DNA of 64,000 bases from Chloroflexota bacterium (GTDB taxonomy: Bacteria > Chloroflexota > UBA11872): positions 1-64,000 of the forward strand of contig JAPOVQ010000026.1 of the NCBI GenBank assembly GCA_026708035.1. The letters are read 5' to 3'. How positions within the stretch are numbered: position 1 is the first letter of the stretch; every line of letters begins with the position of its first letter. Below the pieces are notes generated by a model. That model was not told where the DNA came from, ran no database searches, and was given only the letters and a program-made list of their open reading frames with translations. The position numbers and the translations under genes are program-made. Below, piece after piece: positions 9,389 to 42,260 of this stretch.

Positions 9389-10414
9389 TCTAGCCTCTCC
9401 ATGATCTTTGCATGACCAAACTAGACACTTCCAATGTCCTTTGGGTTAGGTTCGGGCTCGAATTGTGCAAAATTGGCTGCGGCAACGACATCCGGCTGCG
9501 GACCGCAGCGTGCTGGCATTCCTGGTTGGATCGTAGTTGGCGGTGCGGATGCAGGCGGTCGTCGTGGCGCGCGTGCGCTGAAGACGAGCGGATTGACTCG
9601 CTCACGTTCTAGTCTTGCCTTCGAGGCAGTTAGCTTGCGCCGCTTGCGCCAGAACAACCTGCTGTCCCGTCCTGTGCCAAGGGTGGGTAGCGTCTAAAGG
9701 TAGGCGCTCCAAACGCGCGCGCCAAGGCCCAGCTAACCGATAAACCTCGGCGTGCCACGCGATTAGACTTTGACTCTATTGAGCCGCCTCGATCCGTGGC
9801 ATACCGTTGGGGGAATCTGACGGAAAGTGCAGTCTCGTCTAAATCTGATGGCCCGCATCTCCATTGCGACGCCGACAACATGCGTCCCACGGGCCATAGC
9901 CTCAGTCCAGGTAGGAACCTCCGTGTCGAATCGCTGGCCAAAGTGCGTGGCGTGATCGAGACGATGCGACACAGCCGAATTGACACCGTGCTGAGCATTC
10001 TCAAGTCCAACGTCCGCCAGTCATGTGAGCCCAAGAGGCGCCGGGGAGTTGAGATCCACCTTGCCTGTGCGATGGAGGACCGCCCACGTTATTCTGCTCT
10101 GATGACACGCGACAGATTGTATCGTCGGAGATGGCCGGACTCGCACGGAGGCAGGTGCGGAAGCTGCTGATCGACAGCCGAATCCATTTGGTCAGCAAAC
10201 GGGTGCCTCCAAAGGGCAACGTAGACGGCCCAAGTCTGGGGCCTGGGCCGGTCGACTCCGCGCCGCCGAACTAACAGGTTCGGCGGTCGGGACGACCGGA
10301 AAAGCTCCTGGCGGAGGCCCCTAGCCCTGAAGGCGATAGGCAGGTCACGGGCGGGCACACCGAGCGCCCACCGCGCCCACGGTCGCTTGACCGCGGGCGA
10401 GAGGAGGCCCTCCG
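9389..10414. other. Kilobase gap with no recognisable gene
   Basis: Several short frames exist, including a proline-rich 78-codon frame on the minus strand (9421-9657, TTG start) that would sit just upstream of the KAP gene in the same direction, but none resembles a known family and I cannot tell it from chance. The stretch may be decayed sequence between the KAP gene and the recombinase. Confidence 0.4.
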
Positions 10415-11389
10415 ATGTTGAGCATGACCGATGTCCACGACCTGCCGCTGCATACGGCCGTCGACCACTACCTGGTGGCGCTGCGCGTTGAAGGCGCGGC
10501 CCCGACGACCATCGAGACTTATCGCTCGGTCCTGGCGTCATACTTGCGCTGGGCGGCCGCGGACGCGGCGCCCACCCTGGCCGACTTCACCCTGCTCCAG
10601 GTCCGCGCCTACGTGGCGCACTTGCTGGGCGAGCACGTGCGCTTCGCCCATCACCACAACGTCCGCGCCGGCGGACAGCTGAGCGACTACACCATCAACC
10701 TGCACGGCCGCGTGCTGCGGGCCTTCGCCGCGTGGCTGGACCGGGAGGAGCACACCGAGGAGCACGTGCTGGCGCGGTTCAGGCCCCTGCACCCCAAGAC
10801 CAAGCCCATCGAGCCCCTCACTCCCGAGGAGTTCAAGAGGCTGGTGGCCGCGTTGACGGGACCGGCCAGTTTGCGGGCGCGCGGACGGGCGATGCTCTAT
10901 CTGCTGTTTGACACCGGCATCCGGGCGTCGGAGCTGGCCGACATTCGGCTGGGCGATCTCGATCTTGAGGCGGGGATCCTGCGGGTGCGCGGCAAGGGCA
11001 GCCAGCGCCAGCGGGTGAAGTGGCGCACCGTCGGCATGGGCGTGCGCGCCCAGCGCGCGGTTCAGCAGTACGCCTTCCGCCACCGGCCGCCCGCGATCCC
11101 CGTGGGCGAGGACCGGGTGTTCCTGACCCGCCACGGCCGGCGCATGACGCGCAATACGGTGCACCGGTTCGTGAAGCGTCTGGGGCGGCTGGCCGGCGTC
11201 GAGCGGGCGCACCCACACCTGTTCCGGCACTCAACGGGCGTGGCGTTCCTGCGCAGCGGCGGCTCGGAGAGCGTGCTGCAGCGCATCCTGGGGCACGCCA
11301 GCCGCGAGATGGTGGAGCACTACATGCACCTCGCGGACACGGACGTGACCCAGCTGCACCGCCGCCAAAGCCCACTGGATCACCTGTGA
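10415..11389 (+). CDS. Tyrosine recombinase/integrase (XerC/D-like), intact copy
   Basis: 324 aa. N-terminal SAM-like core-binding domain (about residues 10-115) followed by the catalytic domain with all expected residues: Arg in DTGIRASELADI, Lys in VRGKGSQRQR, H-x-x-R in HLFRHSTG, His in LGHASREM and the nucleophile Tyr in VEHYMHL. Preceded by GAGAGGAGG about 9 bases before the ATG. Parts of the same gene occur at 3316-3417 (3' end) and 14688-15092 (5' end), in the same orientation, so this family has been copied or rearranged repeatedly here. Probable role is integration or excision of a local element; no attachment site could be identified. Confidence 0.9.
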   Translation: MLSMTDVHDLPLHTAVDHYLVALRVEGAAPTTIETYRSVLASYLRWAAADAAPTLADFTLLQVRAYVAHLLGEHVRFAHHHNVRAGGQLSDYTINLHGRVLRAFAAWLDREEHTEEHVLARFRPLHPKTKPIEPLTPEEFKRLVAALTGPASLRARGRAMLYLLFDTGIRASELADIRLGDLDLEAGILRVRGKGSQRQRVKWRTVGMGVRAQRAVQQYAFRHRPPAIPVGEDRVFLTRHGRRMTRNTVHRFVKRLGRLAGVERAHPHLFRHSTGVAFLRSGGSESVLQRILGHASREMVEHYMHLADTDVTQLHRRQSPLDHL

Positions 11390-26395: not shown

Positions 26396-26785
26396 GATTC
26401 ACAAACGAAGTGCAACACCTTGCAAAGGTGCTGCCATGGGACGGTGCTACGCACAGCTCACCATTGAAGACCGGTGTGAAGTGGCCCGACGCCACGCCGC
26501 CGGCGCCTCGAGCCGCCAAATCGCGGCAGCTCTGGATCGCGCGCCATCGACGATTACTCGGGAGTTGAAACGCAATGCCTCCCGCACCCAGGGCTACCAG
26601 CCGCGCCATGCCGACCAGCAGGCCCACTCCCGCCGCTGGCGCGGGCCCCGCCTCGACCGCGACCCCACCTTGCGCGCCAAGGCCAAACGCGGCCGCCGCG
26701 GGCGCAAGCGGGGCAGTCCCGCCTCCTTTATTCAGCACCGCCGCCCCCTTGCCGACCGCCACGCCGGACTCACTGGCGAGCGGCG
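26396..26785 (+). mobile_element. IS30-family element, left part only; transposase from 26436
   Basis: The left end begins near ATTCACAAACGAAGTGCAAC. From ATG 26436 the frame encodes the IS30 helix-turn-helix region: YAQLTIEDRCEVARRHAAGA, SRQIAAALDRAPSTITREL and RGRKRGSPASFIQHRRPLA. At about 26785 IS30 similarity ends and the methyltransferase resumes, so the catalytic DDE domain and right end are deleted. The resulting chimeric frame continues to 26855. Confidence 0.75.
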
Positions 26786-28086
26786 CCAACTTCCAGGACC
26801 GCTGGTCGTGGGCGACGACGTGGAGGGCGAGAGGGTCGACCAGATCCAGGACTAATGGCCGGTGGTGTGGCAGGTCATCGGCGCGGCGCGGGCGGCGTGG
26901 GCGACGACATGGCCGCGTTTCTGTGCTTCATGGGCATTTGGCTCATCGAGATGCGGCGGGTGCTGCGGGACGACGGGAGCCTGTACCTGCACTGCGACCC
27001 GACCGCGAGCCACTACCTCAAGGCGCTGCTGGATGCCGTGTTTGGGTGGCGGAATTTCAGGAGCGACATCATCCGGAGACGTGCTCTGGCCAAGGGCCTA
27101 GCGTTCAAGGGATTTCCGAACAACGCCGATCATCTGCTCTATTACAGCGGGTCGGACAGCTTTTCATGGAATCGGCCCTTTCTGCCGCATGACCCCGAAT
27201 ATGTGAAGAGGTCGTATCGCCATGTGGAAGCGAAAACGGGCAGGCGGTATCGGCTTGACAATCTGGCGAATCCAAACAAGGACTGACCGAACCTGAAGTA
27301 TGAGTTCCTTGGTGTGACGCGGGTTTGGCGGTGGACTCGTGAGCGGATGCAAGCCGCTCACGATGCGGGCCTTGTCGTGCAGACCAAATCCGGCGGTGTC
27401 CCTTTCCTCAAGAGGTACCTGGACGAACAGAAAAGCACCCCAGTCGACACGATCTGGGAGGACATTAGACCGGTTCAGCCACAGTCGAAGGAGCGCACCG
27501 GCTACCCCACCCAGAAGCCCCTCGCCCTGTACGAGCGAATCATCGAGGCGTCCAGCAACCCCGGCGATATCGTGTGTGTGACCCATTCGCCGGCTGCGCC
27601 ACGACGCCCATCGCCGCCGAACGCCTGGGCCGCCAGTGGGTCGCGATGGACATCTGGGTGGGCGCAGTCGATATCGTGCGCCAGCGCATTGCCGACAACC
27701 GCCAGCTGCTGACCGACGCCGACCCGCAGATTCACTACGTCACCGAGCCGCCGGAGCGCACCGACGACCGAGCCGAAGCCGTGCCGTTCCTGCAAGTCAC
27801 CGAGCGCTACGCCGAGCCCGAAGGCCCGCGCATGAGCCGCGCCGCGATGTACGACCACCTGCTGCGGCAGTTCGGCCACGCTGCCAGGGCTGCGACCGCA
27901 CCTTCGATGACCCGCGCTATCTCGAGCTGGACCACAACACGCCGCACTCGGACAGCTGTCTCAACCACATCACCAACCGCATCCTGCTCTGCGGCCCCTG
28001 CAACCGGCTCAAGAGCAACACCTACACGCTGTCAGGCCTGCGCCGCGAGAACCGGCGGCATGGGTACATGGCGGCGAGTTAGTGCG

Positions 28087-28659
28087 TCAAACGCCTTGTC
28101 GCTTGATGCGCTCGGCCTCCTCAATCGTGTACACAATGACAGCGCTGATGTCGTCGATCTGGTCAGATGACGGGGACCAATAGTCGCGTGTAAACGCAGA
28201 GAGAAATCGGTGAGCCCGAGCCGGACCGTCGCTACCTGTGGGTCGGAATGCGAGCCGTTGAATCTCGCGCGTCGCCATAAGCGGGTGCGCCAACAGGTCG
28301 TTTCGGATCCTGCGTACCCGCTTGATTCGCTCTCGCATTGTTTCATCTTCGACACCCGCGACAATGAATGTCGGTTTCGGTCCAGCAACCATCTTCGTAA
28401 ACTGCCGCGACCTTTGCTTGCCCCAACACGCCACGATCTTCCACACACAGGCCTCGCACAAATGGCTGTGCAATTGGCTCAAGTGATGGCGCAAGCGGAC
28501 GTGTTTCGTGTCACCGGCATCCAACTGGTCATCGAGTTCATTCACTTGTCCGGCGAGATTCGCGACCTCGCGCCATATGAACTGGGCGTCCTGCGCACGC
28601 CATAAGATGTCCTGCGCGCTCAAGGCGATCTCATCTGGAATCGTGTTGGCCGTTGACAT
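28087..28659 (-). CDS. HEPN-like small protein (190 aa)
   Basis: Begins MSTANTIPDEIALSAQDILW after a good GGGGAG site 8 bases upstream. Mostly helical; the segment RIKRVRRIRNDLLAHPL contains R-N-D-x3-H, the R-(4-6)-H pattern of HEPN nucleases. That assignment rests on the motif and helical character only. It is convergent with the methyltransferase-HNH remnant (4 bp apart) and has no obvious nucleotidyltransferase partner. It could be a toxin or abortive-infection RNase; a plain structural helical protein is the alternative. Confidence 0.6.
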   Translation of the reverse strand: MSTANTIPDEIALSAQDILWRAQDAQFIWREVANLAGQVNELDDQLDAGDTKHVRLRHHLSQLHSHLCEACVWKIVACWGKQRSRQFTKMVAGPKPTFIVAGVEDETMRERIKRVRRIRNDLLAHPLMATREIQRLAFRPTGSDGPARAHRFLSAFTRDYWSPSSDQIDDISAVIVYTIEEAERIKRQGV

Positions 28660-28720
28660 TGCACGTCTCCCCGCGGCTATTCGGTCCGACGCCGCTCCGC
28701 GAACGACCGGAGACTACATT

Positions 28721-28795
28721 TGGTTCCGGGGGTCGGATTCGAACCGACGACCTGGTGGTTATGAGCTACCCGAGCTGCCTCTGCTCCACCCCGCA
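28721..28795 (-). tRNA. tRNA-Met (CAU), with encoded CCA
   Basis: Read on the minus strand it begins TGCGGGGTGGAGCAGAGG; the anticodon loop is CTCATAA (anticodon CAT), the T arm GTCGG-TTCGAAT-CCGAC is perfect, and CCA is encoded at the 3' end. The acceptor stem has one mismatch (G2-G71) and the anticodon stem one A-C mismatch; the stem lacks the three G-C pairs of initiator tRNA. It sits among prophage remnants rather than in the core, so it may be phage-derived, an integration target or partly degenerate. Confidence 0.8.
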
Positions 28796-28848
28796 AGGTC
28801 GGATCTCAGCTTAGCAGCGACGGGGTATTCCAGCTACGCGTCCGCGCG

Positions 28849-29010
28849 TCACTCCGAGCGTTCGGCCAGTTGCAAGAGCATCTCCTCTTGCCACCGATAT
28901 CGGTCGATCTGGTAGCGCCACCAGTAAATGCCACCCCACGATCCAAACGTGACGACGGTAAGCAAGATGTGCATGACGTGCGAGCCCAACTTGAAGTGCC
29001 GGGTTCTCAT
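28849..29010 (-). CDS. Small single-span membrane protein (53 aa)
   Basis: ATG at 29010 follows GGGAGG at 8-base spacing. MRTRHFKLGSHVMHIL starts a membrane helix running through TFGSWGGIYWW, then a charged tail (RYQIDRYRWQEEMLLQLAE). The pattern of short basic lead, helix and charged tail resembles small phage or prophage membrane proteins such as superinfection-immunity types; that is a resemblance, not an assignment. Confidence 0.55.
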   Translation of the reverse strand: MRTRHFKLGSHVMHILLTVVTFGSWGGIYWWRYQIDRYRWQEEMLLQLAERSE

Positions 29011-29095
29011 CGCAAAACCCTCCCCGATTCCTGCAGCGCCGAATGATGCCGCAGCGGGGGGCGTCAAGTAACACTTGACCGCGACGGTCTGCGGC

Positions 29096-29239
29096 CTACG
29101 CCGCGCTCGCGTTCTTCGCCTTGCAGCGGGAGCAGCGCACCACCCACGGGCGCGTCACTTCGTCGGCCAGCACGCGCCGGCAGCGCCAGCAGCGCGGCTT
29201 CTTGTCGGTGATGGGCGCCGGGCGCGTCTCGACGGTCAC
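29096..29239 (-). CDS. Com-like zinc-ribbon protein (47 aa)
   Basis: GTG at 29239 overlaps the stop of the upstream small gene (GTGA), indicating translational coupling. RCWRCRRVLADEV...VVRCSRCKAKN supplies two C-x2-C knuckles spaced as in the Com zinc-ribbon proteins of Mu-like phages, which regulate translation of the phage DNA-modification gene. No mom-like gene is nearby. It belongs with the prophage remnants on this strand. Confidence 0.6.
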   Translation of the reverse strand: MTVETRPAPITDKKPRCWRCRRVLADEVTRPWVVRCSRCKAKNASAA

Positions 29240-29430
29240 GCGTCGGATGCCGTCGTCGACTCTGTGGGCAGGATGCCCAGCTCGACCAAGCCCGTCCGAT
29301 CCCCCGTCGCGTGCAGGCGGTCCCAGGCGTCACGCGCCGCCTGTAGGCGCTCCTGCTGATCCTCCGGCAGCGTCTCCAGGTCGACGAACGGCCACTCGCT
29401 CCAACGTGGGTCATTGGCGTCTGCGGCCAT
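29236..29430 (-). CDS. Small acidic hypothetical protein (64 aa)
   Basis: ATG at 29430 with a near-perfect AGGAGGTAACTG site. The chain MAADANDPRWSEWPFVDLET...LPEDQQERLQAARDAW is acidic and helical. It is the first gene of a coupled pair with the zinc-ribbon gene (4-bp overlap). Position among phage genes suggests a phage accessory protein; function unknown. Confidence 0.6.
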   Translation of the reverse strand: MAADANDPRWSEWPFVDLETLPEDQQERLQAARDAWDRLHATGDRTGLVELGILPTESTTASDA

Positions 29431-29461
29431 CAGTTACCTCCTGCCGGAAGCATCCGCACCG

Positions 29462-30540
29462 TCATGAGTCGGAAGGAGCCACCGAACGAGCGGGGGCACC
29501 GCCGTAAGCGTCGATGCCTTCCAAGTCTCTGAGCTCGTCGATCCAGTCTTCGCCCCAACGGCGACTCCGAATCTGCAGATCGTTGAAGTCACGAACGTCC
29601 ACCAGCTGCATGCGTGCCCCGGGCATCATCGTAAACTCTGACTCCGCACGATTGATCGCCATCACCCGCTGGCCCTAGGCATCGTGAATCTCCATCAGGA
29701 CGCGATGCCGCGCCTCGGGAGGGGCGAAGAACAGAGCCCACTCTGGATCCCCCGACGTTGCGGTCGGTGCGTCCAATCTGGACGTCTTGCCGACGACAAA
29801 GTCTTGGACGTCCGCTTCGTCGCCCCAATTCATGCCCCGATAGAGTGACGCGTAGTCGCTACGCCTACGTGAGGCGGCCCACATCCGATCTATGTCCGCC
29901 TGCTGCTCGGGGCTTAGGGCCTTTCCCGCCCGTAGGTTCTAGACGATGTCGGAGTAGTTGTCGATCCAATCGCCGAGCAGCGCCTCGTCGTCGACGTACT
30001 CGTCCAGATCCTGGGAGCTCCGATCGGATGCGCTTTGCCGTCAGCCCCTCCGATTGAGTAGATGCCGATTGTTGGCTCTTGCCTCCCGCAACGCCGGCCG
30101 CGTCGCCCCGCGTGCTGCCAAGCTATTGGCCGGCAGGGGCGGTGGCTCTGGCTCTGCTTCTGTGGCAGGCGGCTTAGTTACGCCAGCTTTCGGGATCACC
30201 GGCTCGGCGACGCAGCGGCACTGGATTGGCTCGCCCGGGTGACCGATGGCTGGCGCCTGGTCCCAGCGCTGCGTTGTGCCCTCGAGGTCGGCGTGGTCGG
30301 CAAGCACGCGCTCGTCCTGGACGGTGCGCCAGACGTACTCCTCGTTGCCAAGCTGCAGATGCCTTGCCTGGGTCAGGTTCGAGATCGCCTTGTTGGTTTG
30401 ATCCCGCGTGATGCGCCGCAAGTTCCAGTTCGCCACCTGGCCCTTCTCCCGCACCACCTGCGAGAGCGCCTGCTGATCGAACGGCTTGTCGGCGAACGCC
30501 TGGCTGATGCCTGTGTGAAGATCGTCCATGAGGCGCGTCG
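29462..30540 (-). pseudogene. Phage head-morphogenesis protein (Mu gpF-like) fused to an ADP-ribosyltransferase domain
   Basis: One uninterrupted frame of about 360 codons with three nonsense codons: TGA 30041-30043, TAG 29939-29941, TAG 29675-29677. The N-terminal half has the gpF signature: NLRRITRDQTNKAISNLTQ, YVWRTVQDERVLADH, RWDQAPAIGHPGEPIQCRC. The C-terminal half is an ADP-ribosyltransferase exoenzyme fold: Arg in SLYRGMNWGDEA, a S/T-rich strand TATSGDPEWALFFA, and the E-x-E loop in NRAESEFTMMPGARM. Minor head proteins with ART tails are known in tailed phages. The N-terminus is truncated at the join with a terminase fragment. Confidence 0.8.
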
Positions 30541-30966
30541 GTACTTCACGGAGTCGCGGGTGCTCAAGCTTTGGGCGTAGCTGGCGCTCCTAGACTTGTC
30601 CTGCAGTCCAGCCAGAGGCCTGTCGTCGCGTCGCTGCTGGATTCAGGTCCACGCGGGCCACATGACGGCGACCGTGACGCTCTTGCTGTGGCGCGGCGGG
30701 ATGCCGGTCAGCAGGCGGCGAATCTCGCCCCGAGTGACAGCTTCCAGGTGCTCACAGATGACGCGGATGTGCCAGTTGTCGCGGAAAGGCGCGGGGTCCA
30801 CGTAGGGCCACATCTGCCGGACGAACTAGTACAGGTTCGCTTTGGCGCGCTCGGCATCCTCATGGTGCAGCCAGGCGGCGAGCAGCGCTTCCTGGGCTGG
30901 CGAAAGGCTGTCCGCCAGCGCACAGGCTTCGGGGGACACGTGGGATCTGTCGAGGTCGGTGACAAG
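30535..30966 (-). pseudogene. Phage terminase large subunit, N-terminal fragment
   Basis: Frame encodes SPAQEALLAAWLHHEDAERA, then TAG (30826-30828) where family sequence suggests Gln, then FVRQMWPYVDPAPFRDNWHI, ICEHLEAVTRGEIRRLLTGI, PPRHSKSVTVAVMWPAWT (Walker-A-like region of the packaging ATPase), TGA (30643-30645) in place of Trp, and SASYAQSLSTRDSVKYRR. The nuclease half is gone; the frame runs into the head-protein gene at about 30537, so the terminase C-terminus, portal and head N-terminus have been deleted. Confidence 0.8.
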
Positions 30967-31003
30967 GCCCTATGCTAGCGGGCCAATAGCTCGGGGGGAG
31001 ATC

Positions 31004-31243
31004 GTGAAAGGGAGCAAGAGCTTTAGGCGTGAGCGTGCTGCAAGGATTCGTGGGCTGCTGCGTCAGTTGCGGTGCACAGAGTCCGGATACTCCCAGAGGC
31101 GCATCCGTGACGAATTGCGCGATGACTGCGACTTCTATATCACCGACTGGCACCACATCTTCGGACCGAGCCCGGATGGCTTCACCGTTGCCGAATTTGA
31201 TTGGCTCGTCGATCACGGACACATCAGAATCATTGACGACTGA
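31004..31243 (+). CDS. Hypothetical protein (79 aa)
   Basis: GTG start at 31004 behind GGGGGGAG. VKGSKSFRRERAARIRGLLR has a basic helical start, followed by DFYITDWHHIFGPSPDGFTV and a short acidic end. The frame is clean with good codon use. It is divergent from the terminase fragment. Family unknown; the basic N-terminus could bind nucleic acid. Confidence 0.5.
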   Translation: MKGSKSFRRERAARIRGLLRQLRCTESGYSQRRIRDELRDDCDFYITDWHHIFGPSPDGFTVAEFDWLVDHGHIRIIDD

Positions 31244-31269
31244 ACGCATGCGGCTCGCCAGCCAGGGGG

Positions 31270-31456
31270 AGGCGCACCGATTGAGCGGAGGCGGCTACTC
31301 AAGGCGGTCTGGACCGGAGACTGCCTCCACATCATGCGAGGCCTCAATAGCGAGTCCGTGGACCTGATCTATCTGAATCCGCCCTTCAACCGCGATCAGG
31401 ACTACGCGGCGCCCATCGGCAGCTCCGCGGAGGTGCCGATTTCAAGGACAAGTTGC
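31270..31456 (+). pseudogene. DNA methyltransferase, N-terminal fragment
   Basis: Translation TGDCLHIMRGLNSESVDLIY and LNPPFNRDQDYAAPI shows the DPPF-type catalytic motif IV (here NPPF) and the upstream GD...IMRGL signature of beta-class N4/N6 methyltransferases. After GSSAE the frame slips (GADFKD continues in another frame) and similarity ends by about 31456. It is a different gene from the IS-split methyltransferase at 25304. Confidence 0.65.
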
Positions 31457-31459
31457 AGC

Positions 31460-31769
31460 TGCGGTAGACCGCCAGCACGCCAGCCGTCCAAGCCCCGGCG
31501 TGCCCACCGCCCAGAGGCCAGCGCAAAGCATGGCTCATGAGCACCGCCGGGGTGAGCGCGATGAGCGTCAGCACACCCGCGATGACTGCTAGCAGCGCTG
31601 GCCAGCGCCAGTCCGATGTCACCAGCCACTAGAGCGCCTGTAACTTGATTCGCGTAGCGTCGGGCGCGCTGTAGGCCACGAAGTCGAGGTCCCGATTTCC
31701 ATCGACCAGGGCATCCGCCACCAGTAGAACATGTCGAACGGGCGACTGGCCTTGGCCATCCTGACAAGT
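31460..31769 (-). pseudogene. Fragment of a membrane protein
   Basis: Minus-strand frame with LLVADALVDGNRDLDFVAYS, an in-frame TAG (31629-31631), then WLVTSDWRWPALLAVIAGVL and TLIALTPAVLMSHAL, which contains one clear hydrophobic membrane segment. Both parts share the frame, as in other decayed genes here. Family not recognised; it could also be two unrelated chance frames. Confidence 0.35.
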
Positions 31770-31879
31770 ACCGCGTGGCCGCGCATTTCACGGCGAACGG
31801 AGGCCATCCAAACCGCCCTGGAAGGCATCCGTCCCGGGGAGGTGCGGAAAGTCCCGATCTAAAGATAGATATGGGATTG

Positions 31880-32260
31880 CGTGACCACCGACACCAGCGA
31901 GGACTCGCTGCGCCTGGGCGAGGATGGCCCGACGCGGCGCCGGTTCCTGGCGCGCTTGCAGAGGGAAATCACCAAGAGGGGCGCGATCGACGTGCTGCGC
32001 AGGGACATCAAGCGCGGGCCGCACCAGGTCGACCTGGTTTGCGGCAGACCGTCGCCCGGAATCGAGCGGGCCAGGCTCCTCAACCGGAAGAATCGGCTCA
32101 GCGTCGACGGCAGCTGCGCTACAGGCGCGACGAGCCCGAGCGTTCGCTGGACGTGAGCCCGTTCATCAACGGCCTGCCCGTCGCCGCCTTCAAGCTGAAG
32201 AATAGCCTGACCAAGCAGACGGTGGACGACGCGGTGGAGTATCGTCAGTTCGCACAACGA
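31880..32260 (+). pseudogene. Type I restriction endonuclease HsdR, N-terminal fragment
   Basis: RRRFLARLQREITKRGAIDV, LRRDIKRGPHQVDL and IERARLLNRKNRLSV, then a one-base shift near 32107 to RQLRYRRDEPERSLDVSPFI, NGLPVAAFKLKNSLTKQTVD. This is the HsdR N-terminal nuclease region; the ELK-type catalytic motif appears as KLKN, with the acidic residue replaced by Lys. Helicase domains and hsdM/hsdS are absent. From 32261 to 32439 the sequence is unassigned. Confidence 0.75.
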
Positions 32261-32439
32261 AGGCTGCGGCCTGAACCCCAGCGACACTTCCACTCGTGCC
32301 CGCGGCCAAGCACCAGGACGGTCCGCCGTCTCGCGGCGGGCTGGAACACGCCCGCCAGCGGAAAGGCGGAGCGTGCGGCTAGCGCAAACGGACCCGCAGC
32401 CGTGGCTCACTCCGACGGCCGAACGCCGCCGATGTAAGT

Positions 32440-34953: not shown

Positions 34954-37053
34954 TCATCGCCGACCGAGTAGCCTGCCCACCATTCCGTTCCGCCGCCTGT
35001 TGAGGTTTCTGCCGAGAAACTCTTCCAATTCGGGACGGTTAAGAACAGTTCGTGCGCCGACGCTGGCATTGTCGTCAATCAGAGTGGAGGGAACGTTTTC
35101 CCAATCGAACTCGCGACGTCCGAAGGTGTCGGTCTGCTCAATCACGATGACTTTGTCTTTCTCAAGTATCCAGCCGCTGGACTGATTGCCCTCCTTCTTC
35201 ATCCTCGTGGCCCGCCTGAGCAGGTGGTCCACTTGGGCCTTAACCCGCTCATGCCGTTTCTCGGCGTAGTCGTTCCACCTGATTGGGACGCACCACTTGG
35301 GCGGGCTTTCCGCCAGCAGGTCGGCAACGAGACCTGAGAGGATGGTGGAGGAGAACTCCAGCCAGTCGTCGGGCACTGGCGTTACGTCGAGCCGGGCCAG
35401 CGTCCTCCTGAGGTACTCCCGGTACAGGTTGGAAGAAAGGCCCCGGCGCACCTCCTGAATCTTCAGGTGCAGCTCGTGCCGCAGGCTCTCCTTGTAGGAA
35501 GGGAGGGCGGTGGTGGTGTAGATCATCAGGCTGCGCTTAACGATCTGGTCGGTGAAGGCCTTTAACTCCTGATTCATGGAGAGGACGAAGCAGGGGTACT
35601 CGGAGACCAGCGGTGGCACCTCGTCCTTGATTACGTCCTCGCCGTGGTTGCGAATGGCGGGCCTGCCGATATCGTCGAAGACGGCGGGGAACCGCCGGTA
35701 GGCGTGCTGAATGTCCCAGAGCCTGCGCTTGGTGAACTCCCGCTTGTCCACGTTGTAGGCCCTTCCGAACATGGAGGTCATCAGCGTCTCTATGAGGCTG
35801 GACTTCCCGCAGGAGGGCTTTCCGTAAACGATGGCAACGGACGGGTACCTGAAAATGTCGCCCTCGTGGCCGGCCAGGGTCCGCATGTCGCACATGAAAG
35901 GTGAGAAGTAAAGCCACGACCAGAGGATGAAGTAGTCCCGCTGGAGCCTCTCCACCCCCATGCCGCCCTCAAAGGTGCCCTCGTAGTTGCCGAAGAATTC
36001 CACCAACAGCTTCGCGTCGTTCCTGGCGGAGTCGAGGTCAGCTTCCAGTGAGAACGGCTCGCGGAAGAATGTGACGGTCTTCGCGTCTCTGTCGATCGAC
36101 AGCTCCCGGTGGTCGGCCTCCTCCTCCGTCTGGACGACGCGGATGCGGCTGTACTCCTTGACGATCCGGCGCCTGATATCGCGTGGTATCTGCTGCCTTC
36201 CGTTGCGGGGCGCCGGGATGAGGTTGGCCACCACCGGGGGTACGGCAGCCTTCATCCTCTCTATCCGCTCAATCTGGTGGGGGACGCTCATGTGGACGGC
36301 ATTGCCGTTCGGTCCCTCCTCGTCGCCTGAGTCGATCACCAGGGTGGCATGGTCGTCAAGGGCCAGAACGGGGACTTCAGTAAGGCTTATCTCAGCGTGC
36401 TCAATCCGCTCCGGTGGCAGGGGCATCTCGTCGGAGGCCTGGTCCCTGATGGACTGGTACATGCCCACATAGTGGCCCCAGGCGGCTTCGTCATCATCGA
36501 AACAGACCAGGGTCTCGGACTGTCGCCCGCCGAAGGCGGTCTCCGACAGGTTGGCCGATCCGATGAGGACGCGAGTGCTGCCGGACTCCGTGTTGTCCAA
36601 GAGGTACAGCTTGGCGTGGGCTATCTGCTTGCGCAGCACCCGGAACCGGGCCTGTCCCTTCCTGACCCGCCTCAGGATCGAGGCGTGGCGCTCACTGGGC
36701 AGGTTTCTGATGGCCGCCCGGGCGTCGCCGATGGCGACCTGTTGGAAGGCCAAGACGTCCCTCAGGGTGTGCAGGATGTTCTCGCACCCGAAGACGCACT
36801 CGAAGTCGCTAAAGCTGTGCTCGTCCAGGAGTCGGACGATGGCGCTTGTCCCTGCCGAGTAGGTGAGGATGCGGATGCGGTCGTAGCCGTCAAAGATCGA
36901 CCAAGAGAACTTAGTCTCGGACTGGAACCGGGCGCGGGCCACACGCAAGCCCGTGCCGTCGTCTAGGTCGAAGCTCAGAGTCTGTTCGGGTCCGGGGCCG
37001 CTATGCTTCAAGCCATTCTCCTCAGATTCCGCCGCGACTCGGCCAATCGGCAT
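34954..37053 (-). CDS. Single-chain phospholipase-D-like nuclease plus AAA-type ATPase, candidate defence protein
   Basis: Intact 699 aa. N-terminal PLD domain (about 40-215) with one complete HKD motif: H146-x-K148-x4-D153 (IAHAKLYLLDN) and the following GSANLSETAF (165-174). One motif implies a dimeric active site, as in Nuc-like and restriction PLD nucleases. A 180-residue linker leads to a P-loop ATPase (about 395-520): Walker A GKPSCGKSS (411-419), Walker B AVFDD (457-461), sensor-like FVLSMNQE (489-496). This core resembles SF3-helicase-like or phage-type AAA proteins. I know no named defence system with exactly this order. The gene is undamaged amid heavy decay, stands alone and points away from the core. 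Confidence 0.75.
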   Translation of the reverse strand: MPIGRVAAESEENGLKHSGPGPEQTLSFDLDDGTGLRVARARFQSETKFSWSIFDGYDRIRILTYSAGTSAIVRLLDEHSFSDFECVFGCENILHTLRDVLAFQQVAIGDARAAIRNLPSERHASILRRVRKGQARFRVLRKQIAHAKLYLLDNTESGSTRVLIGSANLSETAFGGRQSETLVCFDDDEAAWGHYVGMYQSIRDQASDEMPLPPERIEHAEISLTEVPVLALDDHATLVIDSGDEEGPNGNAVHMSVPHQIERIERMKAAVPPVVANLIPAPRNGRQQIPRDIRRRIVKEYSRIRVVQTEEEADHRELSIDRDAKTVTFFREPFSLEADLDSARNDAKLLVEFFGNYEGTFEGGMGVERLQRDYFILWSWLYFSPFMCDMRTLAGHEGDIFRYPSVAIVYGKPSCGKSSLIETLMTSMFGRAYNVDKREFTKRRLWDIQHAYRRFPAVFDDIGRPAIRNHGEDVIKDEVPPLVSEYPCFVLSMNQELKAFTDQIVKRSLMIYTTTALPSYKESLRHELHLKIQEVRRGLSSNLYREYLRRTLARLDVTPVPDDWLEFSSTILSGLVADLLAESPPKWCVPIRWNDYAEKRHERVKAQVDHLLRRATRMKKEGNQSSGWILEKDKVIVIEQTDTFGRREFDWENVPSTLIDDNASVGARTVLNRPELEEFLGRNLNRRRNGMVGRLLGRR

Positions 37054-37362: not shown

Positions 37363-38007
37363 ATGACCCGATCACTGCCGACCCGCGATTGCAACGTCGT
37401 GACCCGCGGGAATTCGCGTCAACCGAAGAGTGACCGGCCGCTGGCCACCCGCCGCGGCCGCCATTCCCGCGAGTCGCGTCTGCGGACGCTGCAGGCGGCT
37501 CTCCGCAAGATCAACTCGGCCTGGGAGCTCTCGCAGTCGCCGCTCGCCAAGTACCGGGATCTCCAGGCGCTGGGCCAGACCCAGTTCGCCGACCGGGCAT
37601 TCCCCGAGGGCTGGGCGGTCCAGGCGGTGCTTCGCCTCGCCTGCGCCCGAGTGGCCGGCGCCCTCGATCCCCGCAAAGGCGAGTTCCTGCAGCGCTGGGT
37701 GGCCGGCGAGTCGATCGCCCGCATCGCCGCGTCAACGGGTATGAGTCGCAGCCACCTTTCGCGACGCTGGCGACCGCAGGTGCTGGCGGCCATCGATGCC
37801 GAGGTTGCCAATTTGCTGCGCGAACTGCGCGCCACTGGCGGGCGACTGGAGCACGAGGCGCCCGAGAGCAGCCAGGGTTCTCCGCCGGCCGATGGTGCCG
37901 TCACCGCGGTCGTTCGTGGATCGAGGCGCGGCGCGCGTGCTCGGAGAGCTCGTACCCGTGCTGGATGGCGACAGGCGGACCCACAAACCGCGACCCATCC
38001 GAATTAG
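37363..38007 (+). CDS. Helix-turn-helix protein (214 aa), element-borne
   Basis: Helical core AALRKINSAWELSQSPLAKY, then FLQRWVAGESIARIAASTGM followed by SRSHLSRRW, a clear sigma-4-like helix-turn-helix (about 113-137). Both termini are basic and low-complexity, so the exact start and end are less certain. It could be a DNA-binding regulator of the island; the divergent PLD-ATPase gene would be the obvious target, but nothing in the sequence proves it. It is the last accessory gene before tRNA-Leu. Confidence 0.55.
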   Translation: MTRSLPTRDCNVVTRGNSRQPKSDRPLATRRGRHSRESRLRTLQAALRKINSAWELSQSPLAKYRDLQALGQTQFADRAFPEGWAVQAVLRLACARVAGALDPRKGEFLQRWVAGESIARIAASTGMSRSHLSRRWRPQVLAAIDAEVANLLRELRATGGRLEHEAPESSQGSPPADGAVTAVVRGSRRGARARRARTRAGWRQADPQTATHPN

Positions 38008-38113
38008 CTAGAATTAGCCGGATTTCACGGCGCGACGTGTGCCACGAACGCCCCTAGCCTGGCTGGTTTGCCCCCCAGGGACGCGGGGACCGGATCCGGT
38101 CCGCCACTTCGAG

Positions 38114-38200
38114 TGGTGCCGAGGGCGGGACTCGAACCCGCACAGCCCGGAGGCCACTAGCCCCTCAAGCTAGCGCGTCTACCAATTCCGCCACCTCGGC
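38114..38200 (-). tRNA. tRNA-Leu (GAG), with encoded CCA
   Basis: Minus strand: GCCGAGGTGGCGGAATTGG, anticodon stem CTAGC/GCTAG with loop TTGAGGG (anticodon GAG), a long class II variable arm (GGCCTCCGGGCTGT), T arm GCGGG-TTCGAGT-CCCGC, acceptor closing GCCGAGG/CCTCGGC, CCA encoded. All stems pair. It marks the boundary between decayed accessory DNA and intact core, the classical position for integration, though no second copy of its 3' end was found in the window. Confidence 0.95.
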
Positions 38201-38305
38201 CGGGCGCCCGATTATAGGCGTGAACGCCCGTCACTGTCCGACCGGACGTTTGGTGCTCGCGGATGGCGTACGCTGGGCGCAATCAGACCATCGCAGAGGA
38301 AATTT

Positions 38306-38746
38306 ATGTCAAGCTCACCGCACGTCGCATGGCTGCGCCTCTCGCCGACCTCCGGGCAGAACGTGGGTGTCAGCAGCCTCAGCTTCGTGGCCGACCTGGG
38401 CATCGAAGGCGACCGCCACGCCAATCCAGAGTCGCGCAACCAAGTGCTGCTCATGGACACCGAAACCCTGGACGTGCTGGAGCTTGGACCCGGCGATATC
38501 CGCGAGAACGTCGCCACCACCGGTATCGATCTCGCATCGTTGAACGAGGGCGATCGGCTGCGCATCGGGGCGGAAGTCGAGGTGGTGATCTCACACCCCT
38601 GCGACCCGTGCTACAAGATGGACATCCTGCGTCCGGGGCTCCAGGAGGAGATCAGAGGACGCCGGGGGATGCTGGCCACCGTCAGCACCGGCGGCGTGGC
38701 CGTTGCAGGCGACCCCATCACCCTCACCGCCGCCACGGAGGCCTGA
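38306..38746 (+). CDS. MOSC-domain protein
   Basis: 146 aa. Characteristic pattern LGIEGDRHA, RNQVLLMDTETLDVLELGPG, DIRENVATTGIDLASL and the Cys-bearing HPCDPCYKMD that in MOSC proteins carries sulfur for molybdenum-cofactor enzymes, then GRRGMLATVSTGGVAVAGD. Stand-alone MOSC proteins are linked to Moco sulfuration or metal-sulfur transfer; substrate unknown. The CinA-like gene downstream (52447) is another molybdopterin-fold protein but is not linked. Confidence 0.85.
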   Translation: MSSSPHVAWLRLSPTSGQNVGVSSLSFVADLGIEGDRHANPESRNQVLLMDTETLDVLELGPGDIRENVATTGIDLASLNEGDRLRIGAEVEVVISHPCDPCYKMDILRPGLQEEIRGRRGMLATVSTGGVAVAGDPITLTAATEA

Positions 38747-38793
38747 GAGCCCCAACTCGTCCCCGCGCCGAACCCGCGCATCCCGGAGGTCGC

Positions 38794-39324
38794 ATGAATC
38801 TCTACATCCTGCGCCACGGCAAGGCTGAGCCATTTGGGCCGACCTATCCCCGGGACGATCTTCGACCGCTCAGCCTGATGGGAATGCGGCGTACCGAACG
38901 GTCCGCCAGGGGCATGGCCGCGGCCAACGTGGTCGTCGACACGATCATCTCCAGCCCGCTGCTGCGCGCGCGTCAGACCGCCGAGATCGTGCACGAGGGC
39001 CTCGGCGTCGCGGCCGATATTGAATACTCCGACGCGCTCGCCACTGGCGATCTCAACGGCATCGTCGATGCCGTGCGCGGCCATGAGCGCAACAAGGGCG
39101 TCATGCTGGTCGGGCATGAACCGACGCTCAGCCAGTTGATCTCGATTCTGGCATTCGGCGCGCCCGGCGGGTCGTTCGGCCTGAAGCCGGGCGGACTCTG
39201 CAAGCTCCAGACCTACGCCATCGGTCTGGGCCAGTGCGCCGTGGTGCGGTGGTTTCTGACGCCGAAACAGCTCGTGGGACTGGGCAGGGGCTCGCGTGGA
39301 GGCAATCGCGGCGCAGCGGCATAG
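38794..39324 (+). CDS. sixA: SixA-like phosphohistidine phosphatase (histidine phosphatase family)
   Basis: Start at ATG 38794 behind CCGGAGG, chosen over longer in-frame extensions because [16 protein letters not shown] is the exact family start. RHGKAE holds the nucleophile His, [13 protein letters not shown] the second Arg, and VGHEPTLS the second catalytic His. SixA removes phosphate from histidine phosphotransfer domains or the PTS-Ntr. 176 aa, slightly longer than usual with a short Gly-rich tail. Confidence 0.8.
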
Positions 39325-39378
39325 GTGGGCAGAACGCCTAGGAGACCTTTGCAGAATGCAGGTCAGAAGGTGTGTATG

Positions 39379-39458
39379 CGCCCCGATCCGTTCTACAGCT
39401 CCTTCGACAAGCTCAGAGCCTGCCCCGTACTTGATACGGGGACGAACGGATCGGGGCG
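39379..39458. repeat. Interspersed palindrome, family A (CCTTCGACAAGCTCAG type)
   Basis: CGCCCCGATCCGTTC (39379-39393) and GAACGGATCGGGGCG (39444-39458) form a perfect 15-bp stem; inside are CCTTCGACAAGCTCAG and a second nested palindrome CCCCGTA-CTTGA-TACGGGG. A sister copy is at 61116-61172. Located between the SixA and PD40 genes; could form a strong transcript hairpin. Confidence 0.85.
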
Positions 39459-39547
39459 CGGCGTGGGGGATTGTTCAGTATTTCCCTGAGGCGGCGCACC
39501 GACTCCGGCGAATGCGGCGCTGCCAGTTCCCACGAGCCGCGCCTTGG

Positions 39548-40759
39548 ATGGCCAGCGGCCTGACCTGGAGCTTGGCCACAGCCCTGGCGAGTGCGGCGCT
39601 GATTCTGCTGAGCGCCTGCAACGGCGGCTCGTCGGGTGTGATTCGCGTGCCGATCGAGCGCGTCACGGTGGTCGCCACCACGCCGGCGCCGCTCCCTGCC
39701 GAGTTGCCGGTCGGTCGGCCCCGTCCCACGCCGACGGCTCCGGTGAACCTGCCACCTCCCACACCCACGGCCACCGCAACCCCCACACCCAGTCCAACGC
39801 CCGCCCCCACGGCCACGCCCAGCCCGACACCGTCTCCCACGCCGACTGCAACGCCAACGCCCACACCGAGCCCCACGCCAACGCCGACACCCGAGCCGAC
39901 GCCCACCCCAACCCCGACGCCGCCCCCTCCGAATACGCCGTTTCCGCTGCTTTGGGTCGCCTACCAGGCCGACATCGGCCGCAATCTCGAGATTTACGTC
40001 ATCGCCACGGACGGCACCGGCCAACGGCGCCTGACCATCAATCCCGCCGACGACGCGCAGCCCGCGTGGTCGCCGGACGGCTCGACTATCGCCTTCGCCA
40101 GCAACCGCGACGGCGAGTTCCGCATCTGGCTGATGGACTCCCTTGGCCGCAACATCCGCCCGCTCACGCAGGGGCCAGGCGACTCCCGACCCTCCTGGTC
40201 GCCCGACGGTTCGACCATCGCCTTCCAGTCCCAGCGCCGCGGCAGCCCGGACGTGTGGATCGTCGACGTCGAGACGGGCGAGGAGACGCTGGTCGTCGGC
40301 AGCGGCCGCGCGGAGAACTCGCCGTCGTTCTCGCCCGATGGCACTCGCATCGTGTACAGCGCCGACCGCTTCGGCCAGTTCGACCTCTTCACCATCGCGC
40401 TCGATGGGAGCGACGAGCAGCGGCTCACCGACGCCGCCGGCGCCGACCTAGAGCCGCGCTGGTCGCCGGACGGCACGCGCGTGGCCTACGCCACCATCCG
40501 CGAACGCCAACCGCACGTGGCCATCATCAACGCCGACGGCACGGGCGTCGTCGTGCTGCCGCTGTCAGAGTTCAGATACACCCTTGGCGACCGAGCCCCG
40601 GTCTGGACGCCGGACGGCGACGCGCTGGTCTACGTGACGGCTGATGGCGACTCGTCTAATCTGGCGGTGATGTGGGTGGATGGTTCGGGGCGGACATTGT
40701 TTGTATTCCGCTTTGGTGACGACTCGTCACCGTCGCTTGGCCCCGCGGTAGCGCCATGA
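39548..40759 (+). CDS. TolB-like PD40 beta-propeller lipoprotein 1
   Basis: Signal segment [20 protein letters not shown] followed by lipobox LLSACN, so the protein is probably exported and lipidated. A start at 39512 is an alternative. A proline/threonine spacer ([13 protein letters not shown] type, about 60 residues) spans to residue about 130, then six PD40 blades each with the WSPDG or FSPDG signature ([74 protein letters not shown]). Such propellers bind peptides or partner proteins outside the membrane. Stop overlaps the next gene (ATGA). Confidence 0.85.
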
Positions 40760-42048
40760 GCCGCGGCGCGGAGATTGCCCGCCGCTCCGCGTTCTTCCTC
40801 GTTCGCATCAGCCTCTTCTGGTTCGGCCTGTCGTTCCTGTGGGGCGGCATGAACATCCAGCTGCTGCCGACGCGGGTGCCGGAGCTGGTGGACGACGAGA
40901 TCAAGGGCACCGCCATCGGGGCCATCGTGGTGGTGGGCCTCATCGTGGCCATCCTGGTCCAGCCCATGGCCGGGGCCTTCAGCGACCGGGTGCGGATGCG
41001 CTGGGGTCGGCGGCGGCCGATCATGGCGGCGGGAATCGCCGCGGCCATGCCCTGTCTGCTGTTCGTGGCCTACGCGCCCAACTACGGGCTGCTGTTCGTG
41101 GCGATGGTGCTGCTGCAGATCGCCGCCAATATCGCCCACGGTCCCTACCAGGGCGTGATCCCCGACCAGGTGCCGACCGATTCGCGCGGTCGCGCGTCCG
41201 GGTTCTTCGGGCTGGCCAACCTGATGGGCACGCTGGTCGGCGCGGGCGTCGCCGGCGCGTGGCTCAGCATGGCCGCCGAGGGGCAGGACCCCAACCCCTT
41301 CTTCGCCCCCGCGCTCCTCACCATCATGGTCGTGCTGGCCGTGTTCTCCATCGCCGCGTGGTTCGCCGTCCGCGAGCAGCGGCCGCCTGAGCAGGCGCCG
41401 TTCGAAGGCGTCTTGCGCGAGGTCCGCGTGCGGCTGAGCGAGCTGAGCCAGCGTTCCGCTTTCGCGTGGCTGATGCTCTCGCGGCTGCTCTACTTCATGG
41501 GCCTGCAGGCCATGGACAACTTCATCCAGCTATTCCTCAAGGGCGACCAGGTGGACGGCGGCCTGGCCGAGAGCGACGCCGAGTTCAAGACCACCATCGT
41601 CCTGGCGGCGGTGCTGCTGACGGCGCTCATCACGACCGTTCCCGCCGGATGGCTGGCCGACCGCTACGGCAAGCTGCGGCTGGTGGCGACGGCCGCGGCG
41701 CTGGGACTCATTGCCGCCGCCGTGCTCATGACCTCGCAGTCGTTCGTGCAGGTCGTGATCTTCGCCGCGGTGCTGGGCGTCGGCGTCGGCCTCTTTACCG
41801 CCGCCGACTGGGCCGTGGCCATCGACCTGATTCCCGACCAGCGCGCGCCCGGCTTATACATGGGCCTCTCAAACGTCGCCACCGCCGGCGGCGACGGCCT
41901 GGCGACGCTGTCCGCCGGCATCGCGCTGGACCTGTTCGGCTACCGGGCGGTCTTCGCCATGATGGCGATCTTCTTCGGCCTGAGCCTGGTGGTGCTCCCG
42001 GTCGTCCGCGCCCGGCTGGCCGCCGCGCAGGCGCCGCCGCCTACGTGA
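40756..42048 (+). CDS. MFS transporter (sugar/H+ symporter-like)
   Basis: 430 aa with about 12 hydrophobic segments. MFS loop motif appears as [21 protein letters not shown] between TM2 and TM3, and [12 protein letters not shown] in the second half. The pattern, with a long first periplasmic region ([17 protein letters not shown]), resembles GPH/SLC45-type sugar carriers. ATG overlaps the stop of the preceding PD40 gene (40756-40759), so the two are translationally coupled. Substrate not predictable. Confidence 0.8.
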
Positions 42049-42073
42049 TGTAGCCCCCCCGCAAGCGCCCGCC

Positions 42074-42260
42074 GTCCGGCTCCCTCTCATGGGGAAAGGG
42101 CTGGGGTGAGGGGCTCCGGTGGCCGGTGGCCCAGGCGGCGTGGCGCCTGGGAGATTCGTCCTCGGCCCGTCCCACGCTGCACGCAGCGCGGGCCACCGAA
42201 GGTCGGCGGCCGCCAACAGGGAGCGCCATAACCGTCCGACATTCCGGCGAACGCCGGAAT
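42074..42260. repeat. Intergenic repeats: family D (42074-42119) and family C palindrome (42241-42260)
   Basis: GTCCGGCTCCCTCTCATGGG ... GGGTGAGGGG is a copy of the element found inside the IIG gene and at 52331. ATTCCGGCGAACGCCGGAAT is a perfect palindrome of the type seen again at 44033, 52245 and 57584. Both lie in the 346-bp gap before the second PD40 gene; no gene is present in that gap. Confidence 0.8.

Follow-up and report, generated by a model that had tools for sequence, protein, structure and literature searches.

A bacterial PLD nuclease–AAA+ ATPase gene homologous to the archaeal Argonaute partner AgaP, and its probable role in defence

Described systems that pair PLD nucleases with ATPases

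AgaP is the Argonaute-associated PLD protein of haloarchaeal APAP systems, described from Natrinema pellirubrum (Cheng et al. 2024, PMC11442185). Plasmid restriction by this system needs the PLD residues of AgaP, immunity to an ssDNA virus is enhanced by the protein, and AgaP alone is strongly toxic, again through its PLD residues. Together with Argonaute (Ago), it is reported to clear the DNA of viruses and plasmids with no noticeable abortive infection. Soluble AgaP was not obtained by its authors, and the main text of that paper uses none of the terms ‘ATPase’, ‘P-loop’ and ‘Walker’.

Two further kinds of restriction system join a PLD nuclease to an ATP-driven motor. SauUSI is a type IV ATP-dependent restriction enzyme whose single chain begins with a PLD nuclease and continues with an SF2 ATPase (PMC7913695). 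In NgoAVII and CglI, the nuclease and a DEAD-family ATPase are separate subunits, accompanied by a B3 recognition domain and a methyltransferase (PMC4267653, PMC5737866).

We analysed a 64,000-nucleotide stretch of Chloroflexota DNA (hereafter the window) that encodes a protein with a PLD nuclease half followed by an AAA+ ATPase half. This protein resembles SauUSI in being a single chain with an N-terminal PLD domain and then an ATP motor (Foldseek E = 8e-4 to the window model), but SauUSI has an SF2 helicase motor, a coupler and a target-recognition domain, whereas the window motor is AAA+/SF3-like, matching AAA+ proteins and Cch rather than SF2, and no such recognition domain was detected. 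NgoAVII and CglI likewise use a PLD nuclease working with an ATPase, and the NgoAVII R protein is the best fold for the PLD half, although their separate subunits, B3 domain and methyltransferase set them apart from the one-chain window protein. Because the motor class differs, the window protein lies outside the SauUSI and NgoAVII families. Among solved structures, the ATPase half is nearest in fold to Cch (SCCmec, PDB 5dgk), a replicative helicase that lacks a PLD nuclease. DISARM DrmC and Azaca ZacB give weak matches confined to the PLD motif region (PADLOC, NCBIfam), with no full-length match (the DrmC model scores 13.4 bits against a cut-off of 133) and no DISARM or Azaca partner gene identified alongside. 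An earlier note on this DNA, made from the letters alone, had held that known systems keep such nucleases and ATPases in separate or differently ordered proteins; this was wrong, as SauUSI is a single-chain PLD-then-ATPase protein (PMC7913695) and AgaP has exactly the window layout.

Organization of the gene and its relation to AgaP

The gene and its parts are positioned in the window as follows.

34954–37053, minus strand: gene for the PLD nuclease and AAA+ ATPase fusion; listed with 699 codons, probable product 685 aa
37009–37023, minus strand: probable true start TTG (37009–37011) with Shine-Dalgarno GAGGAG (37018–37023), as suggested by the sequence
36439–36906, minus strand: PLD nuclease domain, approximately residues 50–205 (Pfam; model; Foldseek to NgoAVII R protein, E = 1.8e-4)
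36550–36618, minus strand: catalytic H146-x-K148 ... G165-S166-A-N168, invariant in 69 homologues
34957–36120, minus strand: C-terminal AAA+ (SF3/MCM/Cch-like) ATPase half, residues 312–699 (model pLDDT 87.3, pTM 0.82; Cch 5dgk, E = 2.4e-6)
35800–35823, minus strand: Walker A GKPSCGKS, residues 411–418 (sequence and alignment of 69)
35671–35685, minus strand: Walker B AVFDD, residues 457–461 (sequence and alignment of 69)
35572–35589, minus strand: motif C/sensor 1 FVLSMN, residues 489–494 (sequence and alignment of 69)
35533–35538, minus strand: invariant K506-R507, candidate arginine finger (alignment of 69)

The open reading frame is unbroken over its 699 codons and is present in one copy in its own genome (3.46 Mb). 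Translation likely starts from the TTG at 37011, behind the GAGGAG sequence, which would give a protein of 685 aa; the codon aligned with this TTG is GTG in relative L046 and ATG in L034, and 685 aa is also the length of several relatives. Pairwise dN/dS values against nine relatives are 0.08–0.16 and low in both halves, which indicates strong purifying selection. The neighbouring 26.4–34.9 kb of the window consists of gene remnants, including an N6_N4_Mtase in two frames, HNH, HSDR_N (type I R protein), Mu-F and IS30-type HTH pieces, with the graveyard of these remnants at 26397–32434. Thus, the early impressions that the protein is intact and that it survives amid decay, hinting at selection, both hold, given the unbroken frame, the invariant catalytic residues, the broken genes alongside and the low dN/dS.

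Two Pfam PLD nuclease domains exceed their curated cut-offs in the window protein, RE_NgoFVII (27.5 bits, cut-off 23.8) and PLDc_2 (27.5 bits, cut-off 27), and together span residues 117–191; each of the 69 homologues matches both families at E≤0.1. In the alignment of these homologues, H146, K148, G165, S166, N168 and E180 are invariant. A complete HKD motif had been claimed for this half, and its HxK and GSxN elements stand, but the Asp of H-x-K-x4-D is not conserved: position 153 is E in 31, S in 25 and D in 7 of the 69. Single-HKD nucleases act as dimers.

A PDB sequence search returned spurious or very weak matches only. For the ATPase half, P-loop Pfam matches are weak (approximately residues 404–500). 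The alignment of 69 holds G411, G416, K417, F459, D460, D461, M493, N494, K506 and R507 invariant, so that the SF3/AAA+ hallmarks K417, D460-D461, N494 and R507 are all present. An SF3/MCM-like AAA+ ATPase is consistent with the Walker A, the two-acid Walker B, the conserved Arg and a motif C whose last residue is N. When the half was searched alone, the best PDB fold was the Cch helicase, followed by many AAA+ proteins including SF3 T-antigens, with modest TM-scores to Cch of about 0.4; viral fold matches are phage primase-helicases, which fits the same motor class. A small beta-rich tip is seen at the C-terminal end of this model, with no Pfam match to a target-recognition domain. The full-length model is of moderate quality (pLDDT 78, pTM 0.53) and does not fix how the two halves are placed relative to each other; the best solved folds for this model are NgoAVII R protein (1.8e-4), SauUSI and Cch (2e-3). 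The P-loop ATPase with Walker A, Walker B and a sensor-like motif, and the guess that it is SF3-like, are supported by invariant residues, motifs and fold.

On N. pellirubrum plasmid pNATPE02 (NC_019963.1, L131:5007–7160), the reading frame after the Piwi gene is AgaP (717 aa), and its H105, K107, E112, G157, S158 and N160 are exactly the residues mutated in AgaP (PMC11442185). The same frame contains the ATPase motifs GESNGGKG (Walker A, 447), VVVDD (Walker B, 495) and FISND (motif C, 529). Comparison of the bacterial family with seven AgaP-group proteins gives an hhalign E value of 8.6e-30 over 563 columns, and the ATPase halves alone give 3e-14, at a sequence identity between the window protein and AgaP of about 17%. 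Residues H146, K148, G165, S166 and N168 align with AgaP H105, K107, G157, S158 and N160, and the two proteins share the two-domain layout over their full length, with HxK and GSxN, Walker A, Walker B, motif C and the Arg. By these alignments, the window protein is a full-length homologue of AgaP, and AgaP carries the same C-terminal ATPase as the bacterial branch. The two differ in spacing, with HxK(x)49GSxN in AgaP (about 50 residues) and 16 residues separating K148 and G165 in the window protein; among the aligned sequences, N. pellirubrum and Haloplanus GX21 alone have the long spacing. In the plasmid record NC_019963.1, the AgaP frame is covered by annotations of small hypothetical proteins, two of which lie on the wrong strand.

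The bacterial branch also differs from AgaP in having no Argonaute in the neighbourhood or genome. In plasmid searches, the Natrinema zhouii homologue lies after a Piwi gene, and a Piwi gene adjoins the homologue in 7 of the 19 haloarchaeal plasmid records that carry one. By contrast with this archaeal arrangement, a profile search (PF02171) found no Piwi in the window genome (G000), and none of 20 further carrier genomes of the bacterial branch has one over the family cut-off. Because Argonaute is absent, the window encodes an AgaP-family protein but not an APAP system.

These comparisons bear on the initial proposal of an undescribed defence effector. The haloarchaeal branch has already been described as AgaP, although that description leaves out the ATPase half. 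Homology to AgaP along the whole length is the main reason why a defence role is well supported, given that plasmid restriction depends on the PLD residues of AgaP. We propose, with a rough probability of 0.62, that the product of the window gene is a defence nuclease of the AgaP family that acts alone and degrades DNA in an ATP-dependent manner; its occurrence without Argonaute here and in many unrelated bacteria is what makes it probably stand-alone.

Distribution, neighbours and the tRNA-Leu island

A genome-wide scan confirmed 110 relatives, mostly from sponge, marine and groundwater MAGs as read from record titles. Matches occur in 22 of 400 genomes of the phylum and 2 of 6 of the genus, and homologues are found in at least eight bacterial phyla (Chloroflexota, Latescibacterota, Pseudomonadota, Acidobacteriota, Myxococcota, Gemmatimonadota, Actinomycetota and Ignavibacteriota) as well as in haloarchaea. 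As far as the sequence tree tells, the gene moves between phyla: the tree forces cross-phylum changes, with at least three for Latescibacterota and at least seven for Chloroflexota, and L101 and L103 form a close pair whose record titles name different phyla. Homologues are plasmid-borne in many hosts. The tested libraries (Pfam, NCBIfam, PADLOC, PHROGs) hold no full-length model for the bacterial family.

No homologue was found in 50,697 phage records and none was confirmed in 2.9 million viral contigs; PHROGs gave no match for the window protein and scattered weak matches among relatives. On these grounds, a reading as a phage helicase was rejected. A transposon reading was also rejected: closely related copies share just the reading frame and tens of flanking bases, yet no inverted repeats were found at the ends of four SAR202-type copies and 18 of 20 genomes carry a single copy. 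The housekeeping, transposon-replication and phage-helicase contexts that the earlier note had named as counting against defence thus did not appear. Three copies (L102, L105 and L108) that are about 93% identical occur in one MAG (SAR202 bin87); their common part is the promoter region and the reading frame only, similarity stops right at the stop codon, and no inverted repeats were found.

Neighbour genes, called by a simple longest-ORF method, are mostly metabolic, and in other genera the contexts are unrelated and the neighbours generic. No conserved operon partner was found among the loci of relatives. Co-occurrence with known defence genes, a check proposed at the outset, was counted and is not enriched, with 158 PADLOC models matched among near neighbours (≤2.2 kb) versus 150 among far ones (>6 kb, 6–10 kb). 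Without such enrichment, the link to defence rests on AgaP homology, fold and mobility.

Striking neighbours do occur, namely a Piwi gene in L031, a type IIG gene in L045, a Mokosh-like helicase in L065 and an HKD plus SNF2 gene in L071, but single cases of this kind outside haloarchaea are anecdotes. The L045 relative is 77% identical to the window protein. In L042 (7076–9982), a 968-aa gene ends 10 bp ahead of the nuclease gene start, and its C-terminal part matches the MADS mad3 (5e-91) and mad8 (1e-37) models. Among the Latescibacterota loci L055, L057, L061, L062, L064 and L070, an AlbA/Schlafen-like gene overlaps the nuclease 5′ end in five, and an HsdM-like gene lies downstream in four.

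The window gene lies at the right end of a region integrated at a tRNA-Leu gene, where two further features are found.

38115–38169, strand not assigned: 55-bp att-like repeat, the 3′ part of tRNA-Leu(GAG) and end of the gene-carrying island, which recurs elsewhere
38114–38200, minus strand: tRNA-Leu(GAG), integration site

The repeat begins in the anticodon loop of the tRNA, extends to its 3′ end and occurs without a full tRNA at G051:C28, G000:C30 and G141:C31; in G051 it adjoins that genome's copy of the gene, on a different contig from its own tRNA-Leu. The examined congeners share an orthologous flank at 38109–42076, and the nuclease gene is missing from some of them. A tyrosine integrase at 10415–11389 is homologous to the integrase abutting the att repeat in G141. 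Another tyrosine integrase lies about 0.6 kb from the repeat at G000:C30 (188334–188843), and in G141 an integrase is directly beside the repeat. The left end of the window integrase joins different sequence ending in CAAG. Within the genus, islands at tRNA-Leu(GAG) are seen as tRNA 3′ repeats on several contigs (L127, L128, L129, L130). Across homologue loci, tRNA adjacency (about 6 of 60) is not clearly above rough expectation.

A divergent HTH gene had been noted next to the nuclease gene, and it exists at 37363–38007 on the plus strand (214 aa, no Pfam match above cut-off), but it belongs to the att end of the island. Because copies sit at the 55-bp repeat without the nuclease gene, as in G141, it is not a nuclease partner; its product is possibly a recombination directionality factor or an island regulator. 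The HTH gene recurs beside the repeat in L130 and L122, with distant relatives (36%) in L124, L128 and L129.

This setting bears on an alternative that we consider unlikely, in which the protein serves the tRNA-Leu island itself, as a nuclease-helicase for its replication, maintenance or recombination, and does not act against invaders. Its position at the att end of an island from a family with tyrosine integrases, the nearness of the ATPase fold to the SCCmec replicative helicase Cch, the restriction of shared sequence between close copies to little more than the reading frame, and the three copies in one MAG would all suit such a role. Against it stand the unrelated contexts in other genera, the prevailing single copy per genome, the HTH gene and att repeat found without the nuclease gene, the failure to find inverted repeats at the SAR202-type ends, and the AgaP experiments, in which plasmid DNA is restricted.

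Proposed function

For a stand-alone defence nuclease of the AgaP family, we envisage that PLD domains would pair to form an active site, and that the AAA+ part, related to the ring replicative helicases of the Cch/SF3/MCM type, would assemble on or around DNA. ATP could then drive translocation or gate the nuclease, with cutting of invading extrachromosomal DNA as the outcome. In the haloarchaeal systems, Argonaute would give target recognition and restrain toxicity. Because the bacterial branch has no Argonaute, control there may be provided by the AAA+ ring itself or by a DNA structure that the ring senses; no separate target-recognition domain was recognised in the window protein. The toxicity of AgaP without Ago makes a free-standing version puzzling.

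That toxicity, exerted through the PLD residues (PMC11442185), is also what favours another unlikely alternative, a toxin-like suicide nuclease whose AAA+ part holds the PLD half off until infection, after which host DNA is degraded in abortive infection. Also in its favour, the bacterial branch has no methyltransferase or target-recognition partner that would spare self DNA. However, AgaP and Ago are reported to remove viral and plasmid DNA with no noticeable abortive infection, and a conserved antitoxin-like partner is lacking. A housekeeping enzyme of DNA repair or DNA-end processing with no defence role would suit the mostly metabolic neighbours but is very improbable, as the gene is missing from most close relatives, a patchiness that argues strongly against it, moves between phyla and is plasmid-borne in many hosts.

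We suggest tentatively, at slightly under even odds, a class of single-gene ATP-dependent restriction nucleases across bacterial phyla that would combine PLD with a ring-forming AAA+ (SF3/MCM-like) motor and work without Argonaute, methyltransferase or recognised target domain; the haloarchaeal Argonaute systems would then be derived, with Ago added to an older enzyme.

The homology connects a large bacterial family with an Argonaute effector demonstrated in archaea, and indicates that this effector carries an AAA+ motor unmentioned in the main text of its paper. The Walker A lysine K453 and the Walker B acids of AgaP offer a handle on how it restricts double-stranded plasmids, and the bacterial family offers non-halophilic proteins for biochemistry. 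In Thermus oshimai plasmid pTHEOS02, the two halves lie in separate reading frames (L029:7935–8744 and 9881–10993) separated by a transposase-family gene, in what appears to be an interrupted copy.
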